Below are positions 1 to 30,253 of a stretch of DNA of 32,153 bases, piece after piece. The translations under genes were made by a program, and so were the position numbers. The notes beneath the pieces were generated by a model that ran no database searches, was not told where the DNA came from, and was given only the letters and a program-made list of their open reading frames with translations. The DNA is from Solirubrobacterales bacterium (GTDB lineage: Bacteria; Actinomycetota; Thermoleophilia; Solirubrobacterales; 70-9): the NCBI GenBank assembly GCA_020438445.1, contig JAGQUO010000016.1:1-32153 (forward strand). Direction: 5' to 3'. How positions within the stretch are numbered: position 1 is the stretch's first letter; each line of letters opens with the position of its first letter.

Positions 1-1
1 C

Positions 2-61
2 GAGGCGATCGACCGGACCTGCGCGGCGGCCGCGGACGGGTTCCGCGAGGCGCTGGGGTGA
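2..61 (+). CDS. C-terminal end of an unidentified upstream gene (partial)
   Basis: An open frame enters from the left edge and ends at TGA 59-61. It gives about 19 residues, ending DGFREALG, with G/C-rich third positions like its neighbours. Its stop overlaps the GTG start candidate of the next gene (GTGA), which supports a real translationally coupled gene. Too little is visible to assign a function; the context suggests it belongs to the same transcription unit as the Rieske/cytochrome b genes. Confidence 0.5.
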   Translation, partial: EAIDRTCAAAADGFREALG

Positions 62-666
62 CGATGGCGGCCGAGACGACCCGCCCCGAGGACGCGCTCG
101 CCGGCCTCGCCGCCCAGCTCCGCGACGAGGGACCGGTCATCGCCGCGCACGTCGCCGAGACCGCCGAGGCACCCGCGCTCGGCCTGCTCGTCGCCGCGGG
201 GCCGCGCTGCGCCGAGGATCCGGGCGGCTACGCGGCGGTCGTCGAGCTCGTCCGCGAGGGCTACCTCTGCCACTACCGCGAGCCGCGGCTGCTCGGGCGC
301 CTCGACGCCGACCTGCGGCTGCTCGTCGGCGACCATCTCTACGCCCGCGGCATCGAGAAGCTCGCCCTCCTCGGTGATCTCCTGGCCGTCGCCGAGCTCT
401 CCGACCTGATCTCGACCGCCGCCCAGCTCGACGCCGACCCCGGCGCCGACCCCGCCGCGCCGGAGATCGCCTGGCTCGCCGCGACGGTAGCGATCGCGGC
501 CGGGGCCGGCGACCCGCATCGGGAGGCCAAGGCGACCCTGCGCGACAGCGGCGACCCGGTCCCGCTCTGGAGCGCGGCCGCCGAGCGGGCGGAGCGTGCC
601 GGGCTCTCCGAGCAACTGTCCCTCGCTTCCGAAGCAGTAGGATTCGCCGCCCCGAACCGTGGCTGA
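58..666 (+). CDS. Hypothetical protein leading the cytochrome bc gene group
   Basis: This 202-residue protein was not recognised. It is Ala/Leu/Glu-rich and looks all-helical, with no membrane span, signal peptide or metal motif. A segment around residues 65-120 (VREGYLCHYREPRLL, then DHLYARGIEKLALLGDL) has the most distinctive composition. It may start at GTG 58, overlapping the previous stop as GTGA, or at ATG 64. Its 3' end overlaps the Rieske start by 8 nt, so it should be co-transcribed with the quinol:cytochrome c reductase genes. A cytoplasmic assembly or quinone-related role is a guess from position only. Confidence 0.75.
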   Translation: MTMAAETTRPEDALAGLAAQLRDEGPVIAAHVAETAEAPALGLLVAAGPRCAEDPGGYAAVVELVREGYLCHYREPRLLGRLDADLRLLVGDHLYARGIEKLALLGDLLAVAELSDLISTAAQLDADPGADPAAPEIAWLAATVAIAAGAGDPHREAKATLRDSGDPVPLWSAAAERAERAGLSEQLSLASEAVGFAAPNRG

Positions 667-1345
667 ATCAGGCGAAGACAAGACGACCGCTGCGGCCGGC
701 GAAAGCCGTGCCGATCAACTCCCTCCGATGAAGCCCGTGGGCTACTTCGAGGGCGAGTCGATGACCCGTCGCCGCGTCTTCACGCTTGCCGGCGGAGCCC
801 TCGGCGGGCTCGCCGGCGCCGGCATCATCCTGCCCGCCCTCGGCTTCGCGGTCGCGCCGATCTTCGACCAGCCCGAGGAGGACTGGCAGCCGGTCGGCCC
901 GCTCGACGACTTCGTCCCCGAGACCTACGTCCCGCGGGTGATCACGATCGTCCAGGGCATCGGCGAGGCCGGCAAGACGACCGTCTACGTCCGCCGCGGC
1001 AGCACCGATCTCGGCGAGGACCCCGACTCCTACGTCGCGATCTCGACCCGCTGCGCCCACCTCGGCTGCCCGGTCCGGTTCGTGCAGGCCGCCGGCAACT
1101 TCATCTGCCCGTGCCACGGCGGCGTCTACGGCTTCCAGGGCGAGGTCATCGGCGGCCCGCCGGTGCGCCCGCTCGACCGCTTCCAGACGCGGGTGACCGA
1201 CGACCTCGTCGAGATCGGCCCGCGCTACAGCGTCACCTCGCAGCTCGAGCCGGTTCGCGCGCGCGACCCGGGCGAGTTCACGGGTGGCGTCTGGGAGTAC
1301 CTCTACCCGCCCCGTCCGTCCACCGCCGCTCCTCCGTCCTCGTAG
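659..1345 (+). CDS. qcrA: Rieske [2Fe-2S] subunit of a menaquinol:cytochrome c reductase
   Basis: The product is the iron-sulphur subunit that passes one electron from quinol at the Qo site towards cytochrome c. Both cluster boxes are present: C132-A-H134-L-G-C137 and C150-P-C152-H153-G-G. By family knowledge C132, H134, C150 and H153 bind the cluster and C137/C152 form the disulphide. A twin-arginine-like TRRRVF at residues 36-41 precedes a hydrophobic segment (about 43-66), fitting a Tat-inserted N-terminal anchor with the cluster domain outside. The GTG start overlaps the previous gene by 8 nt; M24 or M35 are alternative starts. Cytochrome b follows after 10 nt. Length 228 aa. Confidence 0.95.
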   Translation: MAESGEDKTTAAAGESRADQLPPMKPVGYFEGESMTRRRVFTLAGGALGGLAGAGIILPALGFAVAPIFDQPEEDWQPVGPLDDFVPETYVPRVITIVQGIGEAGKTTVYVRRGSTDLGEDPDSYVAISTRCAHLGCPVRFVQAAGNFICPCHGGVYGFQGEVIGGPPVRPLDRFQTRVTDDLVEIGPRYSVTSQLEPVRARDPGEFTGGVWEYLYPPRPSTAAPPSS

Positions 1346-1355
1346 GCCCTGAGCG

Positions 1356-2270
1356 ATGCCAGATCTCCAGAAGCTGCTTCCCCCACCGATGCGCCGGCCC
1401 CCGAAGCCGGGGCACTCGAACGGCAACGGCGACGCGCCGGCGGCGCTCGAGAACGGCGACGCGCCCTCGCCGGTCACCGACAACCCCGGCAAGCGCCTGA
1501 CGACCGGTGCCAAGGACGCCCCGGCCGATCTCGTCGGCTGGGTCGACGAGCGGATGGGAGCGACCAGCTTCCTGACCGCGATGCTGATGCGGAAGGTCCC
1601 GAAGGGGACCAACTGGTTCTACACGCTGGGCTCGGCGACGCTGTTCGCCTTCGTCGTCCAGGCGATCACCGGCGTCTTCCTCGCGATGTACTACACGCCC
1701 TCGCCGGTCGAGGCCTACGCCTCGATCACCCACCTGACCAACGACGTCTTCCTCGGCGAGTTCGTCCGCGGGATGCACAAGTGGGGCGCGTCGGTCATGG
1801 TCATCCTCGTCTTCGTCCACATGGCGCGGACGTTCTTCTTCGGCGCCTACAAGTACCCGCGCGAGCTCAACTGGGTGATCGGGGTCGTGCTGCTGATCCT
1901 GACCATGGTCATGGGCTTCACCGGCTACCTGCTGCCGTTCGACCAGCGCTCCTACTGGGCGACGATCGTCGGCGTCAACATCAACGGCACCGGCCCGATC
2001 GTCGGCCCGTACCTCTCCGACTTCCTCCGGGCCGGGCCCGAGTTCGGGGCGACGACCCTGTCCCGCTTCTACGCGATCCACATGCTGCTGGTGCCCGGCG
2101 CGATCATCGCGATGATCGGCGCCCACCTCTACCTCGTCGTCAAGATGGGGACGACAGCGCCCCCGTGGATGCGCGCCGACCTCAAGCCCAAGGACGCGCG
2201 CCGTGAGCCCGTCGAGGCGATCGCCGACGGCTCGGCCAACGGTGCCTCCGAGAACGGGAACGCCTCGTGA
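1356..2270 (+). CDS. qcrB: Cytochrome b, N-terminal (cytochrome b6-like) subunit
   Basis: The product is the di-haem membrane core of the bc complex. After a hydrophilic Pro/Gly-rich N-terminus of about 80 residues come the cytochrome b helices. Haem ligands are visible as H141 and H155 in GMHKWGASVMVILVFVHM and as H242 and H257 in the later helix. The first pair has 13 intervening residues and the second has 14, the spacing typical of cytochrome b6 rather than mitochondrial cytochrome b. The protein stops after the fourth helix, and the missing C-terminal helices are encoded by the next gene, so the cytochrome is split as in b6/subunit IV systems. The TGA overlaps the next GTG start (GTGA). 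Confidence 0.95.
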   Translation: MPDLQKLLPPPMRRPPKPGHSNGNGDAPAALENGDAPSPVTDNPGKRLTTGAKDAPADLVGWVDERMGATSFLTAMLMRKVPKGTNWFYTLGSATLFAFVVQAITGVFLAMYYTPSPVEAYASITHLTNDVFLGEFVRGMHKWGASVMVILVFVHMARTFFFGAYKYPRELNWVIGVVLLILTMVMGFTGYLLPFDQRSYWATIVGVNINGTGPIVGPYLSDFLRAGPEFGATTLSRFYAIHMLLVPGAIIAMIGAHLYLVVKMGTTAPPWMRADLKPKDARREPVEAIADGSANGASENGNAS

Positions 2271-3124
2271 ACAACCGCGAGAAGGAGCAGTACCTCCGCG
2301 AGTACGAGGTGATGAAGAAGAAGGGGAAGCCCTTCTTCCCGTACGCCGTGATGAAGGACTCGGTGATGGCCTGCGTGGTCGTCGGCGTGATCATCTTCAT
2401 GTCGCTCTACCTCGGCGCCGAGCAGGGCCCGAAGGCGGACCCGACGACGACCACCTACGTGCCCCGGCCCGAGTGGTACTTCTTCTTCCTGTTCGAGTTG
2501 CTGCGCGTGATCAAGCCGCCCGAGCTCGTCCCGATCGCGACGATCGGCGTGCCGACGATCGCGATGGTCCTGCTGCTCCTGCTGCCGTTCTACGACCGCA
2601 ACCCCGAGCGCAACCCGCTGAAGCGGCCGATCGCCTCGATCGCCGGGATCATGACCATCATCGCGATGGCGTTCCTGACCTTCCTCGGCGCCAACGCCGG
2701 CTCGCCGACCGACATCGAGATCGACGTCGCCCCCGAATACGAGGCGGGCAAGCTCGTCGCCGCGCAGTCCGGCTGTCTGGCCTGTCACCAGTTCGGCGAG
2801 AACGGCAACAACGGACCGGGGCCGAAGCTGACCGAGATCGGCGCCCGCCTGAATCCGGCGGCGATCGCCCGCTCGCTCGAGATCGGCCCCGGGATCATGC
2901 CCTCCTACGCGACGATGGCCGAGGACGAGCCCGAGAAGTTCCGCGACCTGGTCGCGTTCCTGGCCTCGCTCAACGGCGAGGAGGAGGCGAGCACGGGCGA
3001 GGTGGGCGTCGCCGGGTCCGGCTCGGTCGAGAGCTCCGGCGGCAATCCCGCCGTGGTCGAGCCCGATGCCGGCAGCTCGGCTGACGGAGCGGGGGCGACC
3101 ACCGACTCCGGCGCGACCCCCTGA
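2267..3124 (+). CDS. qcrC: Cytochrome b C-terminal (subunit IV-like) domain fused to a c-type cytochrome
   Basis: The first 145 or so residues are the C-terminal part of cytochrome b, with about three membrane spans and the Qo-site P68-E-W-Y71 motif. A monohaem cytochrome c domain follows, with C170-L-A-C173-H174 and a plausible distal ligand M211 in GIMPSYATM. A Ser/Gly/Asp-rich tail of about 50 residues ends the protein. One polypeptide therefore supplies both the end of cytochrome b and the electron-accepting cytochrome c; no separate cytochrome c gene is seen here. The GTG start overlaps the preceding TGA by 4 nt. Similar subunit IV-cytochrome c fusions are known in Gram-positive bc complexes. 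Length 285 aa. Confidence 0.94.
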   Translation: MNNREKEQYLREYEVMKKKGKPFFPYAVMKDSVMACVVVGVIIFMSLYLGAEQGPKADPTTTTYVPRPEWYFFFLFELLRVIKPPELVPIATIGVPTIAMVLLLLLPFYDRNPERNPLKRPIASIAGIMTIIAMAFLTFLGANAGSPTDIEIDVAPEYEAGKLVAAQSGCLACHQFGENGNNGPGPKLTEIGARLNPAAIARSLEIGPGIMPSYATMAEDEPEKFRDLVAFLASLNGEEEASTGEVGVAGSGSVESSGGNPAVVEPDAGSSADGAGATTDSGATP

Positions 3125-3183
3125 CCACCGCCGAGAGCAAGCCCTCACGGGACTCGGAGCAGTTCGCCTCCGAGGTCCGCGGC

Positions 3184-3855
3184 ATGTTCGACCGCATCGC
3201 GGGCGTCTACGACGTCATGAACTCGGCGATGACGGCGGGCATGCACCACCGCTGGCGCGAGCGTGCCGTCGACCGGGCCGAGCTCAGCCCCGGCGACGCC
3301 GCCCTCGACGTCTGCTGCGGCACCGGCGATCTCACCCTCGAGCTGGCCCGCCGGACCGGGCCGGGCGGGCGCGTCGTCGGCTCCGACTTCGCCGAGCGCA
3401 TGCTCGACCTCGCCCGCGACAAGCAGGTGCCGGCGGGTGCGGCGAAGCCGATCTTCGAGTGGGCCGACGCCCTCGATCTGCCCTACGACGACGAGAGCTT
3501 CGACGCCGTAACCGTCGGGTTCGGGGTCCGCAACCTGGCCGAGCTCGACCGCGGCATCGGCGAGATGGCGCGGGTGCTGAAACCGGGCGGCCGGCTCGTC
3601 ATCCTCGAGATCACGCAACCGACGCGGCCGCCGCTCTCGACCTTCTTCTCGATCTGGTTCGACCGGCTGGTGCCGCTGATCGGTCGCGCGGCGGGCGACA
3701 GCGCCGCCTACTCGTACCTGCCCGAGTCCGTCAAGCGCTTTCCCTCGCCGCAGGGACTCGCCGAGATCATGGACGGGGCCGGCCTCGAGGACATCCGCTG
3801 GACGATCCTCGCCGGCGGCATCATCGCCATCCATTCGGGACGGCGTTCCTCCTGA
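3184..3855 (+). CDS. menG: Demethylmenaquinone C-methyltransferase (UbiE/MenG family)
   Basis: This is a SAM-dependent methyltransferase that performs the last step of menaquinone synthesis. SAM-binding motif I is LDVCCGTGDLT. Family marks include YDVMNSAMTAGMHHRWR near the N-terminus, VGFGVRNL in the middle and LKPGGRLVILE. ATG 3184 gives 223 aa but begins inside a helix that UbiE/MenG proteins normally carry. The frame stays open upstream to CTG 3121, which overlaps the preceding TGA and would add 21 residues (ending FASEVRG); there is no ATG, GTG or TTG in between. The true start may therefore be CTG 3121. The gene lies between the bc complex and the prenyl synthase. Confidence 0.93.
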   Translation: MFDRIAGVYDVMNSAMTAGMHHRWRERAVDRAELSPGDAALDVCCGTGDLTLELARRTGPGGRVVGSDFAERMLDLARDKQVPAGAAKPIFEWADALDLPYDDESFDAVTVGFGVRNLAELDRGIGEMARVLKPGGRLVILEITQPTRPPLSTFFSIWFDRLVPLIGRAAGDSAAYSYLPESVKRFPSPQGLAEIMDGAGLEDIRWTILAGGIIAIHSGRRSS

Positions 3856-3860
3856 CGACC

Positions 3861-4868
3861 ATGATGAGCCGCTCGTCCTCGCCCGAGCCGGTGACCGCCG
3901 TCACGGACCTCGCCTCCGCCTGGTTGCCGGCGCGGATGACCGAGGTCGAGCGCCGCCTCGGCGAGACCGTCGCCGGGTGGGGATCCGAGCTCGGCTCCGA
4001 CACGGGCGAGACGCTGGCGGCGGGCGGCAAGCGGATGCGCCCGCTGCTCGTCCTGCTCTGCGCCGGCCGCTCCGCCGGGCCGGAGGCGATCCGCGCCGCC
4101 ACCGCGATCGAGCTGGTCCACATGGCGACGCTCGTCCACGACGACGTCCTCGACGACGCGCCGCTCCGCCGCGGGGTCCCGACCGTGGTCGCGAGCTCGG
4201 GCCGCCGTCGCGCCGTCGCCGCCGGCGACCTCCTCTTCTCGCGCGCCTTCGCGGTGCTCGCCGACGACGGCGGCCCGGAGGGCACGAGCCGACCCGCGAC
4301 CGATCGCCAGGTCGAGCTCCTCGCCCGCGCCTCGGTCGCCCTCGCCCGCGGCGAGCTCGCCCAGCGCCGCGACGCCTACGACACGGGCGTCTCGATCGAC
4401 CGCTACCGGCTCCGCTGCGAGCTGAAGACGGCGGCGCTGTTCGAGTGCGCCTGCGTCATCGGCGCCTCCCGGCCACCGGCCGAGGAGGCCTCCCTGCTCG
4501 CCTTCGGACGCGCGATCGGCCTCGCCTTCCAGCTCCTCGACGACGTCCTCGACGTCCTCGGCCCTCCCGAGCGCACCGGCAAGGCCCGCGGCACCGACCT
4601 GCTCGACGGCACCGTCACCCTTCCCTTCATCCTCGCCCGCGACGCCGACCCGTCCCTCCGCGAGATTGACCTCCGCTCCCTCGACGCCTCCTCGGCCGAG
4701 GAGGTCTGCGACCGGATCGCCGCCACCGGCTCACCGGAGACGGTGCGGGCCGAGGCCCGGGACCGGGTCGACCGCGCCAAGCGCGAGCTCCGCGACTCCG
4801 GCCTCGGCGGCGAGGAGCTGCAGATGCTCGAGCTCGTAGCCGACGGGGTCGTCGAGCGCTACAGCTAG
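3861..4868 (+). CDS. Long-chain trans-polyprenyl diphosphate synthase (menaquinone side chain)
   Basis: The enzyme condenses isopentenyl diphosphate onto an allylic primer to build the menaquinone tail. Both aspartate-rich motifs are present: H93-D-D-V-L-D-D99 (first DDxxD) and L226-D-D-V-L-D231 (second), plus G55-G-K-R58 for pyrophosphate binding and K189-T190. At 335 aa it has the size of hepta- to octaprenyl synthase catalytic subunits. Residues around the first motif do not let me fix chain length. ATG 3861, followed directly by a second ATG, begins 5 nt after the methyltransferase stop. It closes the quinone/bc group; repeat copy A begins 78 nt beyond its stop. Confidence 0.93.
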   Translation: MMSRSSSPEPVTAVTDLASAWLPARMTEVERRLGETVAGWGSELGSDTGETLAAGGKRMRPLLVLLCAGRSAGPEAIRAATAIELVHMATLVHDDVLDDAPLRRGVPTVVASSGRRRAVAAGDLLFSRAFAVLADDGGPEGTSRPATDRQVELLARASVALARGELAQRRDAYDTGVSIDRYRLRCELKTAALFECACVIGASRPPAEEASLLAFGRAIGLAFQLLDDVLDVLGPPERTGKARGTDLLDGTVTLPFILARDADPSLREIDLRSLDASSAEEVCDRIAATGSPETVRAEARDRVDRAKRELRDSGLGGEELQMLELVADGVVERYS

Positions 4869-4896
4869 GCGGAGGTCGTCCGCAAGCGATCCAGGC

Positions 4897-4911
4897 GCGG
4901 AGTTGCTCCGC
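4897..4911 (+). terminator. Short GC hairpin after the prenyl synthase gene
   Basis: GCGGAG-TTG-CTCCGC is a perfect 6-bp stem with a 3-nt loop, 29 nt beyond the synthase stop. No T-tract follows, so intrinsic termination is uncertain. Nothing else is recognised between 4869 and repeat copy A. Confidence 0.3.
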
Positions 4912-4989
4912 TCGCTCGGGACCGGTCGCCGGGCGAGGGTCTATGAGGCTGGGGAGGGGGGATGGATCGGTGGGTCCCGTCCCCGCTTC

Positions 4990-5042
4990 GAGCTCGGATG
5001 CAGATTTCGACCACGAGGTGGTCGTTTTCTGCATCCCAGCTC
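4990..5042 (+). other. Repeat A, hairpin 1
   Basis: Outer arms 4990-5004 (gagctcggatgcaga) and 5028-5042 pair over 15 bp with one C/C mismatch. A symmetric TTT/TTT internal loop follows, then a 7-bp stem CGACCAC/GTGGTCG with loop GAG. The equivalent in copy B is 30088-30140, where the outer C/C mismatch becomes a C-G pair while two other outer pairs are weakened. Confidence 0.8.
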
Positions 5043-5047
5043 GCCTG

Positions 5048-5088
5048 GATGGCAAGAAGCGTCCAACTGCTCGTCGCTTCTTGCCATC
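5048..5088 (+). other. Repeat A, hairpin 2 (perfect 14-bp stem)
   Basis: Arms gatggcaagaagcg (5048-5061) and cgcttcttgccatc (5075-5088) are perfectly complementary around a 13-nt loop. In copy B (30042-30082) the stem and the 13-nt loop length are kept, with two stem changes. The stretch CGACCACCT at 5088-5096 is also complementary to AGGTGGTCG at 5016-5024 in hairpin 1, so the two folds could compete. Confidence 0.8.
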
Positions 5089-5157
5089 GACCACCTGATC
5101 GGGCCGCTCGCCGCCTCTACGGCCGCAGCCTTCCCCTCCCCAGCCGATACCCCCGTT

Positions 5158-5171
5158 CGCCTGCCTAGGCG
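5158..5171 (+). other. Repeat A, flanking hairpin with a compensatory change
   Basis: CGCCT-GCCT-AGGCG forms a 5-bp stem 12 nt outside the right terminal repeat. In copy B the same place reads CACCT-GGC-AGGTG (29960-29972). One G-C pair has become A-T with both sides changed, so pairing is kept. Confidence 0.6.
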
Positions 5172-5191
5172 TCCGTGCCCCGGACACCGGC

Positions 5192-5291
5192 TCAGTCCCC
5201 CCGGGCGAGCCTGAGCGCCCGCAGATCAAGGAAGAGGTCGGCGTAGCGGCCTTCGGCCGTGAGCCGGCCGATGACGCCGAGCTGCGCGCGC
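5192..5291 (-). other. Protein-like open frame just beyond the HD-domain gene stop
   Basis: On the minus strand, a frame running from about 5293 to TGA 5194-5192 reads as a credible C-terminus (ERAQLGVIGRL, then YADLFLDLRALRLARGD) with GC-rich third positions. It is +1 relative to the HD-domain gene, whose TGA lies at 5294-5292, and it has no start codon of its own near that point. It could be chance in GC-rich DNA, an old gene end, or a frameshifted extension. Homologues of the HD protein normally end about where this gene's stop lies, which argues against a needed extension. Confidence 0.3.
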
Positions 5292-6311
5292 TCAGGCCGC
5301 CCGGCGGTCGCGGAAGTAGGCGGGTCCGCTGATCCCTCGGTCGAACCCCGACCAGGCCTGGCCGTCGGCGAGCGTGCGCTCGATCCGGTCGAAGCTGCCG
5401 AGCTTGCCGCCGAGGTTGTCCATCATGTGGACGAGGACGGCCTCGCGGGTGGCGGGCGCGACCGGGGAGCCGTGCTCGAGGGTGCCGTGGTGGGCGAGGA
5501 TGATGTGCAGGACGGCCCAGCCGAGGTCGGCGTCGAAGCCGTCGATCGACTCGATCTCGCGGCGGACGCGGTAGTAGCCGAGGGGGATCTCGCCGATCAG
5601 CCGGCCGAGGTCGGTCATGTCGATCGCGAGCGGGTTGTCGTTGTAGGCCTCGAGCTTGCCGATGTCGTGCAGGAGCGCTCCGGTCACCGCCACGTCGCGA
5701 TCGATGCCGGGGAAGAACGAGGCGGCGGCGCTCACGCCCTGCGCGACCGAGAGCGTGTGCTCGAGGAGGCCGTGACGGTAGGCCTGGTGGAAGTGCTTGG
5801 CGGCCGGGGCGTCCCGGAAGCGCTCCCAGAGCTCGCCGCCGGGGGCGACGAGCCGGCCGAGGAGCGTGCGGAGGTCCTCGTTCTGGATCGTGTCGAGGAG
5901 AGCCAGCAGGTCCTCCTCCATCCGCGCGAGCGGGATCGGCGAGCTCTCCAGCAGGTGGGCGGGGTCGTAGTCGCCCTCGGCGGCAGGCTCGATCGACTCG
6001 ACGATGAGCGCGTCGCCCCACTGAGCGCTGCGCTCGAAGCGCCCGACGATGCGGACGACGGTGCCCGGCTCGGCGGCCGCGAAGCGCGCATCGATGTCGT
6101 CCCAGGACTTGCCGTCGACGGTCGCGGAACGGTCGGCGAGCTTCAGCGCCAGCCATTCGCCCCCGCGCTTCGTCGGCCGGCGACTGCGATCGCGGACCGC
6201 GTAGCAGCTCTCGACCCGATCGCCGTCGGCGAGGCCGTTCAGGTGCTGGTGGGCGGGCGGCGCCGGCGCCTCACCGGCGAGATCGCCGAGCTGTGACTGC
6301 AGCTGATCCAT
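5292..6311 (-). CDS. YhaM-like 3'-5' exoribonuclease (OB-fold + HD domain)
   Basis: 339 aa. Residues about 30-110 look like an OB-fold nucleic-acid-binding domain (VESCYAVRDRS, then WLALKLADRS). An HD phosphohydrolase domain follows, with H180/H185 in HGLLEHT, H215-D216 in LLHDIGK, H274/H275 in ILAHHG and a late D298 in HMMDNLGG, the usual metal ligands. The combination and size match the YhaM/CBF1 family of 3'-5' exonucleases acting on RNA or single-stranded DNA. The gene begins 48 nt after the S2P protease gene on the same strand and may be the last member of that operon. Its 3' end faces repeat copy A and the prenyl synthase. Confidence 0.88.
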   Translation of the reverse strand: MDQLQSQLGDLAGEAPAPPAHQHLNGLADGDRVESCYAVRDRSRRPTKRGGEWLALKLADRSATVDGKSWDDIDARFAAAEPGTVVRIVGRFERSAQWGDALIVESIEPAAEGDYDPAHLLESSPIPLARMEEDLLALLDTIQNEDLRTLLGRLVAPGGELWERFRDAPAAKHFHQAYRHGLLEHTLSVAQGVSAAASFFPGIDRDVAVTGALLHDIGKLEAYNDNPLAIDMTDLGRLIGEIPLGYYRVRREIESIDGFDADLGWAVLHIILAHHGTLEHGSPVAPATREAVLVHMMDNLGGKLGSFDRIERTLADGQAWSGFDRGISGPAYFRDRRAA

Positions 6312-12536: not shown

Positions 12537-12609
12537 GGCGAGGTAGCTCAGTTGGTAGAGCACACGACTGAAAATCGTGGTGTCGCGGGTTCGATTCCCG
12601 CCCTCGCCA
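12537..12609 (+). tRNA. tRNA-Phe (GAA)
   Basis: A 73-nt cloverleaf. The acceptor stem GGCGAGG/CCTCGCC is perfect with discriminator A. The D-arm contains AGCTCAGTTGGTAGAGC. The anticodon stem is CACGA/TCGTG with 7-nt loop CTGAAAA (anticodon GAA), and the T-arm is GCGGG-TTCGATT-CCCGC. The 3' CCA is not encoded. Confidence 0.97.
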
Positions 12610-29959: not shown

Positions 29960-30041
29960 CACCTGGCAGGTGACCGGGGGTTGTGGCTGGGGAAGGGGAG
30001 GGTTCGGCGGCTGTAGCGGCGGCGGGGCAGATCGGGTGGTC

Positions 30042-30082
30042 GGTGGCAAGAAGCGACGACTGATTGGACGCTTCCTGCCATC
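30042..30082 (-). other. Repeat B, hairpin 2
   Basis: Arms at 30042-30055 (ggtggcaagaagcg) and 30069-30082 pair at 12 positions plus one G/T, with one A/C mismatch. The loop is 13 nt as in copy A. Confidence 0.7.
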
Positions 30083-30087
30083 CAGGC

Positions 30088-30140
30088 GAGCTCGGATGCG
30101 GAAAACGACCACGTCGTGGTCGAAATCGGCGTCCGAGCTG
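30088..30140 (-). other. Repeat B, hairpin 1
   Basis: Outer arms AGCTCGGA (30089-30096) and TCCGAGCT (30132-30139) are perfectly complementary. The inner stem is CGACCAC/GTGGTCG at 30106-30122. It aligns base for base with 4990-5042. Confidence 0.7.
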
Positions 30141-30253
30141 ACGAAGACCTGTGGCCGGCCCGATTCATCCCCCCTCCCCGGCCCAGCCGACGGTGCCCGC
30201 CGGGAATCGTGGCCCGTACCGAGGGGACGCCGGCCGGAGCCGGGCGGCCGAAG

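Follow-up and report, generated by a model that had tools for sequence, protein, structure and literature searches.

The 32,153-bp window analysed here, positions 1 to 32,153 of contig JAGQUO010000016.1 from a Solirubrobacterales bacterium, contains two copies of an intergenic repeat that we take, with a probability of roughly 70%, to be a non-autonomous, species-restricted mobile element in which inverted tips enclose two REP-like imperfect hairpins and which spread after the host lineage split from its sequenced congeners. The dispersal of the copies, the element-free orthologous sites, the conservation of tips and hairpins, the intergenic bias, and the presence of other hairpins within the same type of tip in a sister genome all point to this reading.

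The element has a G-rich tip, GGCTGGGGARGGG, that is inverted at its two ends. Copy 1 has a 200-bp body (4947-5146, plus strand) ordered as tip, hairpin A, hairpin B, and inverted tip, and copy 2 lies reversed relative to it (body 29985-30183, or 29985..30189 on the minus strand through its degenerate tip). Both bodies end in inverted GGCTGGGGA(A/G)GGG tips and the copies are 81% identical across a 199-bp body, which confirms the structured repeat that the preliminary description placed at two sites of the window. The outer limits given there, 5171 and 29960, lie beyond the body ends at 5146 and 29985, within a weakly conserved outer arm, and the inverted symmetry of the outer arms is weak (p = 0.06). 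Eleven full copies in the genome carry inverted 13-bp tips at both sides with at most two mismatches, and the right tip of locus L016 is unclear. A home-made codon-usage gene caller placed no gene over either copy, open reading frames such as 4903-5214 overlap copy 1 mechanically, and no credible Rfam family was found for the copies at gathering or permissive thresholds, so the earlier statement that neither a gene nor a family is recognizable stands. The sole Rfam match in the window is a tRNA gene at 12537-12609. A second intergenic repeat family adjoins copy 1 at 5204-5303 and recurs dozens of times in this genome and both congeners, with identities of about 75-94%.

Table 1. Positions of the element parts and of the associated breakpoint in the window.
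Feature	Position	Strand
Copy 1 outer 5' arm, conservation weak	4902..4946	+
Copy 1 5' tip, G-rich inverted repeat GGCTGGGGAGGGG	4947..4959	+
Copy 1 hairpin A, with a long outer stem joined through a symmetric TTT/TTT internal loop to a 7-bp inner stem that ends in a 3-nt loop	4990..5042	+
Copy 1 hairpin B: 14-bp stem GATGGCAAGAAGCG / CGCTTCTTGCCATC, 13-nt loop	5048..5088	+
Copy 1 3' tip, G-rich inverted repeat	5133..5145	-
Copy 1 outer 3' arm (..GGCGTCCGTGCCCCG..), weakly conserved; element end not sharp	5147..5188	+
Copy 2 G-rich tip GGCTGGGGAAGGG	29985..29997	+
Copy 2 hairpin B	30042..30082	-
Copy 2 hairpin A	30088..30139	-
Copy 2 outer tip, degenerate (GGCTGGGCCGGGGAGGGG)	about 30172..30189	-
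Spacer occupied by copy 1, apparent breakpoint of an inversion with respect to both congeners	4879..5189	

The window's own genome (G000), a 2.69-Mb MAG in 259 contigs, holds about 28 copies, which consist of 12 full ~200-bp bodies, A+B pairs without clear tips, and a few single hairpins (hairpin B at L023, L025, L026, and L028; hairpin A at L027). The label "two-copy" in the preliminary description is therefore correct for the window but not for the genome. R1, a covariance model built on the A+B core of 22 copies, recovers the G000 copies; it gave no matches at E ≤ 0.01 in 40 close relatives, both congeners (G001 and G002) included, and none at E ≤ 0.001 in 299 genomes of the class, where 13 candidates per genome were scored and weak relatives could consequently be missed. 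The covariance-model search that had been proposed as a check thus yielded further copies in the home genome and, with the models used, none elsewhere in the class. The element had no match among phages, plasmids, or viral contigs. A 19-base pattern from hairpin A had 23 single matches in genome contigs of scattered taxa, which were read as chance. By these searches, the element is restricted to one species among those sequenced, where it occupies about 28 intergenic sites.

Wherever long matches to G001 and G002 exist, the DNA of the flanking genes is 85 to 88% identical. The flanks of 21 loci were queried, with copy 1 (L001) treated separately, and counterparts were fetched for 19 loci. Both flanks were located in one congener for 15 loci (L003-L008, L012, L014, L016-L019, L021, L022, and L028), and 14 of these 15 counterparts lack the element, with no alignment or hairpin match in the spacer. 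Ten of the 14 spacers were read as letters, and the remaining four (L005, L006, L016, where the G001 spacer is ~800 bp, and L017) were judged from the alignment alone. At the fifteenth locus, L028, a different hairpin pair is present in the G002 counterpart and the G001 counterpart holds neither. The clearest element-free pairs are L003 versus L142 and L012 versus L130; L007 has a right flank of only about 110-150 bp, and at L025 a single G001 alignment block, in which the two flanks were not aligned separately, spans the site and contains no hairpin B. One flank only was recovered at L011 and L015, from which we draw nothing, no usable counterpart was available for L010, L013, and L024, and L002, L009, L020, L023, L026, and L027 lay outside the flank query. 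Both flanks of copy 1 were found but far apart, indicating a rearrangement. At the site of copy 2 (L009) the G001 spacer is ~200 bp shorter, and an exact alignment of this site to G001 was rejected because the shorter spacer does not align cleanly. Because the spacers are poorly conserved, insertion points are mostly approximate. The flank comparison suggested in the preliminary description produced the element-free sites but no target-site duplications; matching flanks were not in excess over permuted pairs, and the element ends are not sharp. The best reading of these alignments is that the element spread in the G000 lineage after its split from the two sequenced congeners.

Folding and substitution patterns suggest that parts of the element are constrained. 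Copy 1 folds far more stably than dinucleotide shuffles (z = -9.2 as RNA and -10.0 as DNA), as does copy 2 as RNA (z = -5.5), and no shuffle folded as well in either case. Mean pairwise identity among the 12 full copies is 0.84-0.89 in hairpin columns versus 0.66-0.75 in linkers, which agrees with the earlier observation that hairpins are better kept than linkers. Copy-private substitutions per cell in the same copies amount to 0.022-0.027 in tips and 0.016-0.024 in hairpins, versus 0.042-0.059 in linkers and 0.057-0.066 in outer arms. Private changes are thus ~2.5 times rarer in tips and hairpins than in linkers, in a set of copies that is not a star tree and with a less certain linker alignment. 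Uniform neutral decay would not produce this pattern, and the sequence comparison supports constraint on hairpins and tips. It bears on the proposal that the copies descend from one ancient element or gene-conversion family and have decayed, losing function and mobility. Copies diverge from each other by about 20% and no mobilizing enzyme was found, both in keeping with such an origin, but the non-uniform private substitutions and the examined orthologous sites of two congeners (85-88% identical), which lack the element, make it rather unlikely.

Selection acting on an RNA is less evident. Covariation in the stems is weak, with four double-change pairs versus 1.9 in shuffles and 96.5% of cells paired, and G-U mismatches (12) are about as frequent as A-C mismatches (15, hand count), which gives no sign of selection on one RNA strand. 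These data provide weak evidence for RNA-level selection and lead us to suppose that the element is recognized as DNA. The selection on architecture put forward in the preliminary description is borne out as a constraint on hairpins and tips, with RNA covariation being weak.

The placement of the copies relative to genes is strongly biased. Among 25 scorable copies, 13 sit in convergent spacers; the corresponding figure for element-free spacers (minimum length 60 bp, 0.4 Mb of G000) is 17 of 145 (Fisher p = 1.7e-5, genes called with the home-made codon-usage caller). Divergent spacers account for 3 of 25 copies and 58 of 145 element-free spacers, and no copy is inside a gene. Copy 1 is flanked by convergent polyprenyl synthetase and HD-domain genes, and copy 2 is downstream of an aminotransferase gene and upstream of a small unnamed ORF. 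REPs are known to sit between convergent or same-direction genes (PMC3733652). The bias toward convergent genes and 3' ends, and the constraint on hairpins after spread, would also fit a cis-acting RNA or a bidirectional terminator or attenuator at 3' gene ends, kept for ending or stabilizing transcripts, and copy 1 contains one predicted terminator-like match, in which TTTTC follows the inner stem of hairpin A. We consider this explanation improbable, since copy 2 contains no terminator-like match, hairpin B has no T-run, the stems show weak covariation and balanced G-U and A-C mismatches, and the same sites in congeners lack the element. Moreover, the tips are constrained as strongly as the hairpins, which is not expected of a terminator.

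The mobile-element reading is further informed by the tips, which recur in G002 around other hairpins. Exact matches to the tip pattern GGCTGGGGANGGG number 17 in G000, 7 in G002, and 2 in G001, compared with 0, 2, and 5, respectively, for a reversed control. Both G001 matches are in apparent coding sequence, as judged by eye, and the tip frequency is near background in 58 other relatives. All 17 matches in G000 belong to hairpin elements, and none of the exact tip matches in this fragmented MAG marks a gene-bearing element with the same tips. In G002, the tips, some with up to two mismatches, bound the hairpin combinations D, D+F, E, E+D, C+C+b, b, and H+b (module letters are our own). Module D (TGATCGGGATT..AATCCCGATCA) is present there in many copies and module b in about ten, and the ortholog of the single-hairpin-B site L028 (L139:2290-2500) holds b and H modules. 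D-like hairpins also occur in G000, one beside a tip at C250:10646 (L238), with the contig ending just beyond, and a second on C193 near 19519 beside a tip with two mismatches. Separately, an E-like hairpin, GGGCGGGATCACGCCCGGATACGGGCGAAATCACGCCC, was noted in G000 at L198 near 7950 (C215). G001 carries yet another repeated hairpin, GGTGGGGCATTCTCCGGCCGCATACGGTGCTCAGAATGCCCCACC, often in tandem pairs (L184, L185, and L187). Several hairpin elements of G002 (L163, L166, and L168) have next to them a recurring stretch that contains ACACATATGTCATCCCG or ACACACATGTCATCCCG, possibly another repeat family. An nhmmer profile of the G000 ends gave individually weak matches in G002 (E 0.008-2), nearly all at element ends, and none in the 400 kb of G001 scanned. 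A test of whether the outer arms of G000 and G002 are homologous gave no support (p = 0.09-0.35).

Most modules, those of the congeners included, share one plan: an outer and a short inner stem separated by an internal loop, often a symmetric one, and closed by a loop of 3-6 nt; hairpin B departs from this form by its open 13-nt loop. Many copies in G000 are A+B without tips and a few are single hairpins, which indicates either that tips decay or that hairpins can move without tips. This counts against the favored reading, as do the negative results for target-site duplications, for a Y1 transposase in the genus, and for a gene-bearing element among the exact tip matches, and the fragmentation of the MAG. 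It is possible, although we hold it only tentatively, that hairpins A and B are the mobile units, moving like REPs as folded single strands, and that the body between the tips arose secondarily, as a composite or as a place where they land. The tipless and single-hairpin copies, the recurrence of one structural plan in most modules, and the presence of different modules within the same tips would suit this explanation, whereas the nearly constant A-to-B spacing across all paired copies, the lack of a GTAG or CGTC tag, and a genus without a Y1 transposase speak against it.

Comparison with known repeat classes places the element between two of them. Bacterial MITEs (RUP, NEMIS, ERIC, and Nezha; PMC3733652) are likewise 70-300 bp, non-coding, dispersed, and gene-adjacent, with inverted termini and a robust fold, and by the broader description the element falls within 70-500 bp, is multicopy, has terminal inverted repeats, and shows insertion into orthologous sites. 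The MITE-like character originally proposed is therefore sustained by dispersed copies, element-free congener sites, inverted termini, and non-coding intergenic sequence. The element differs from MITEs in that no target-site duplication or TIR-matched transposase was detected, the exact tip matches of G000 include no related autonomous element with the same TIRs, and the inner hairpins vary inside the same tips. With REPs and BIMEs (PMC3733652, PMC2817692) it shares ~40-nt imperfect palindromes with internal mismatches, species specificity, mosaic combinations, and a location mostly in spacers of convergent or same-direction genes; imperfect palindromes of 20-40 bp in intergenic space are present. 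In contrast to REPs and BIMEs, there are about 28 copies rather than >100, the hairpins lie inside G-rich inverted tips, and the GTAG or CGTC end tag of REPs was not found on the copies. The CGTC-tagged REPs (PMC3733652) are also palindromic, often paired, and devoid of a dedicated transposase, but CGTC precedes hairpin A in a minority of copies rather than forming a conserved end, and the stems of the element are longer. The TIR repeats of TIRYT tyrosine transposases (PMC3733652) are families of G-rich inverted terminal repeats as well; their reported motif, GGGGWSAS (PMC3733652), does not fit the tip GGGGARGGG, and the genus has no tyrosine (Y1) transposase. Neither an Rfam match nor clear covariation, the marks of a structured RNA family, was found. 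The element is best read as working like a MITE that carries REP-like hairpins, with incomplete membership in both classes.

An enzyme acting in trans would recognize the tips and/or the folded hairpins as DNA and would have copied or moved the element. The Y1 (RAYT-type) transposase PF01797 is absent from G000, G001, and G002 and was rejected as the mobilizer, and the mobilizing enzyme may be gone. Copies would be kept mainly between convergent genes and could offer homology for recombination.

The site of copy 1 may provide an example of the latter. Window positions 1-4878 match G001 C1:28.3-33.1 kb, and positions 5190-32153 match G001 C1:102.3-73.8 kb reversed. G001 and G002 agree across both ancestral junctions, which suggests that the G000 arrangement is derived. 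The gene past the other G001 breakpoint is found in G000 on contig C41, next to L020, a copy truncated where that contig ends, and the orientation there is what recombination between inverted copies would give. As far as can be read from the assembly, this fits an inversion produced by recombination between inverted element copies. A misassembly may also account for the apparent inversion, because a misjoin at a repeat would look identical in a MAG of 259 contigs with L020 cut at the contig end.

A bolder extension of the mobile-element reading, which we offer as speculative, is that of a modular system in which one type of G-rich inverted tip is combined with interchangeable REP-like modules (A+B and a D-like hairpin here; D, D+F, E, E+D, C+C+b, b, and H+b in G002). 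The recombinase moving them would be neither of the Y1 kind nor TIR-matched, hairpin families would turn over nearly completely between species with 85-88% identity, and inverted copies would drive chromosomal inversions. How REP- or MITE-like repeats without a dedicated transposase originate and spread is an open question, raised for the CGTC REPs (PMC3733652). The elements may also be the reason why contigs break, and are possibly misjoined, in these MAGs. In the close species compared here, the hairpin families appear to be mostly unrelated and to have spread recently, and two of the families lie within inverted tips of the same kind. Together with the element-free orthologous sites in sister genomes, this allows direct tests of how elements are gained, how modules are exchanged, and how the elements serve as recombination substrates.
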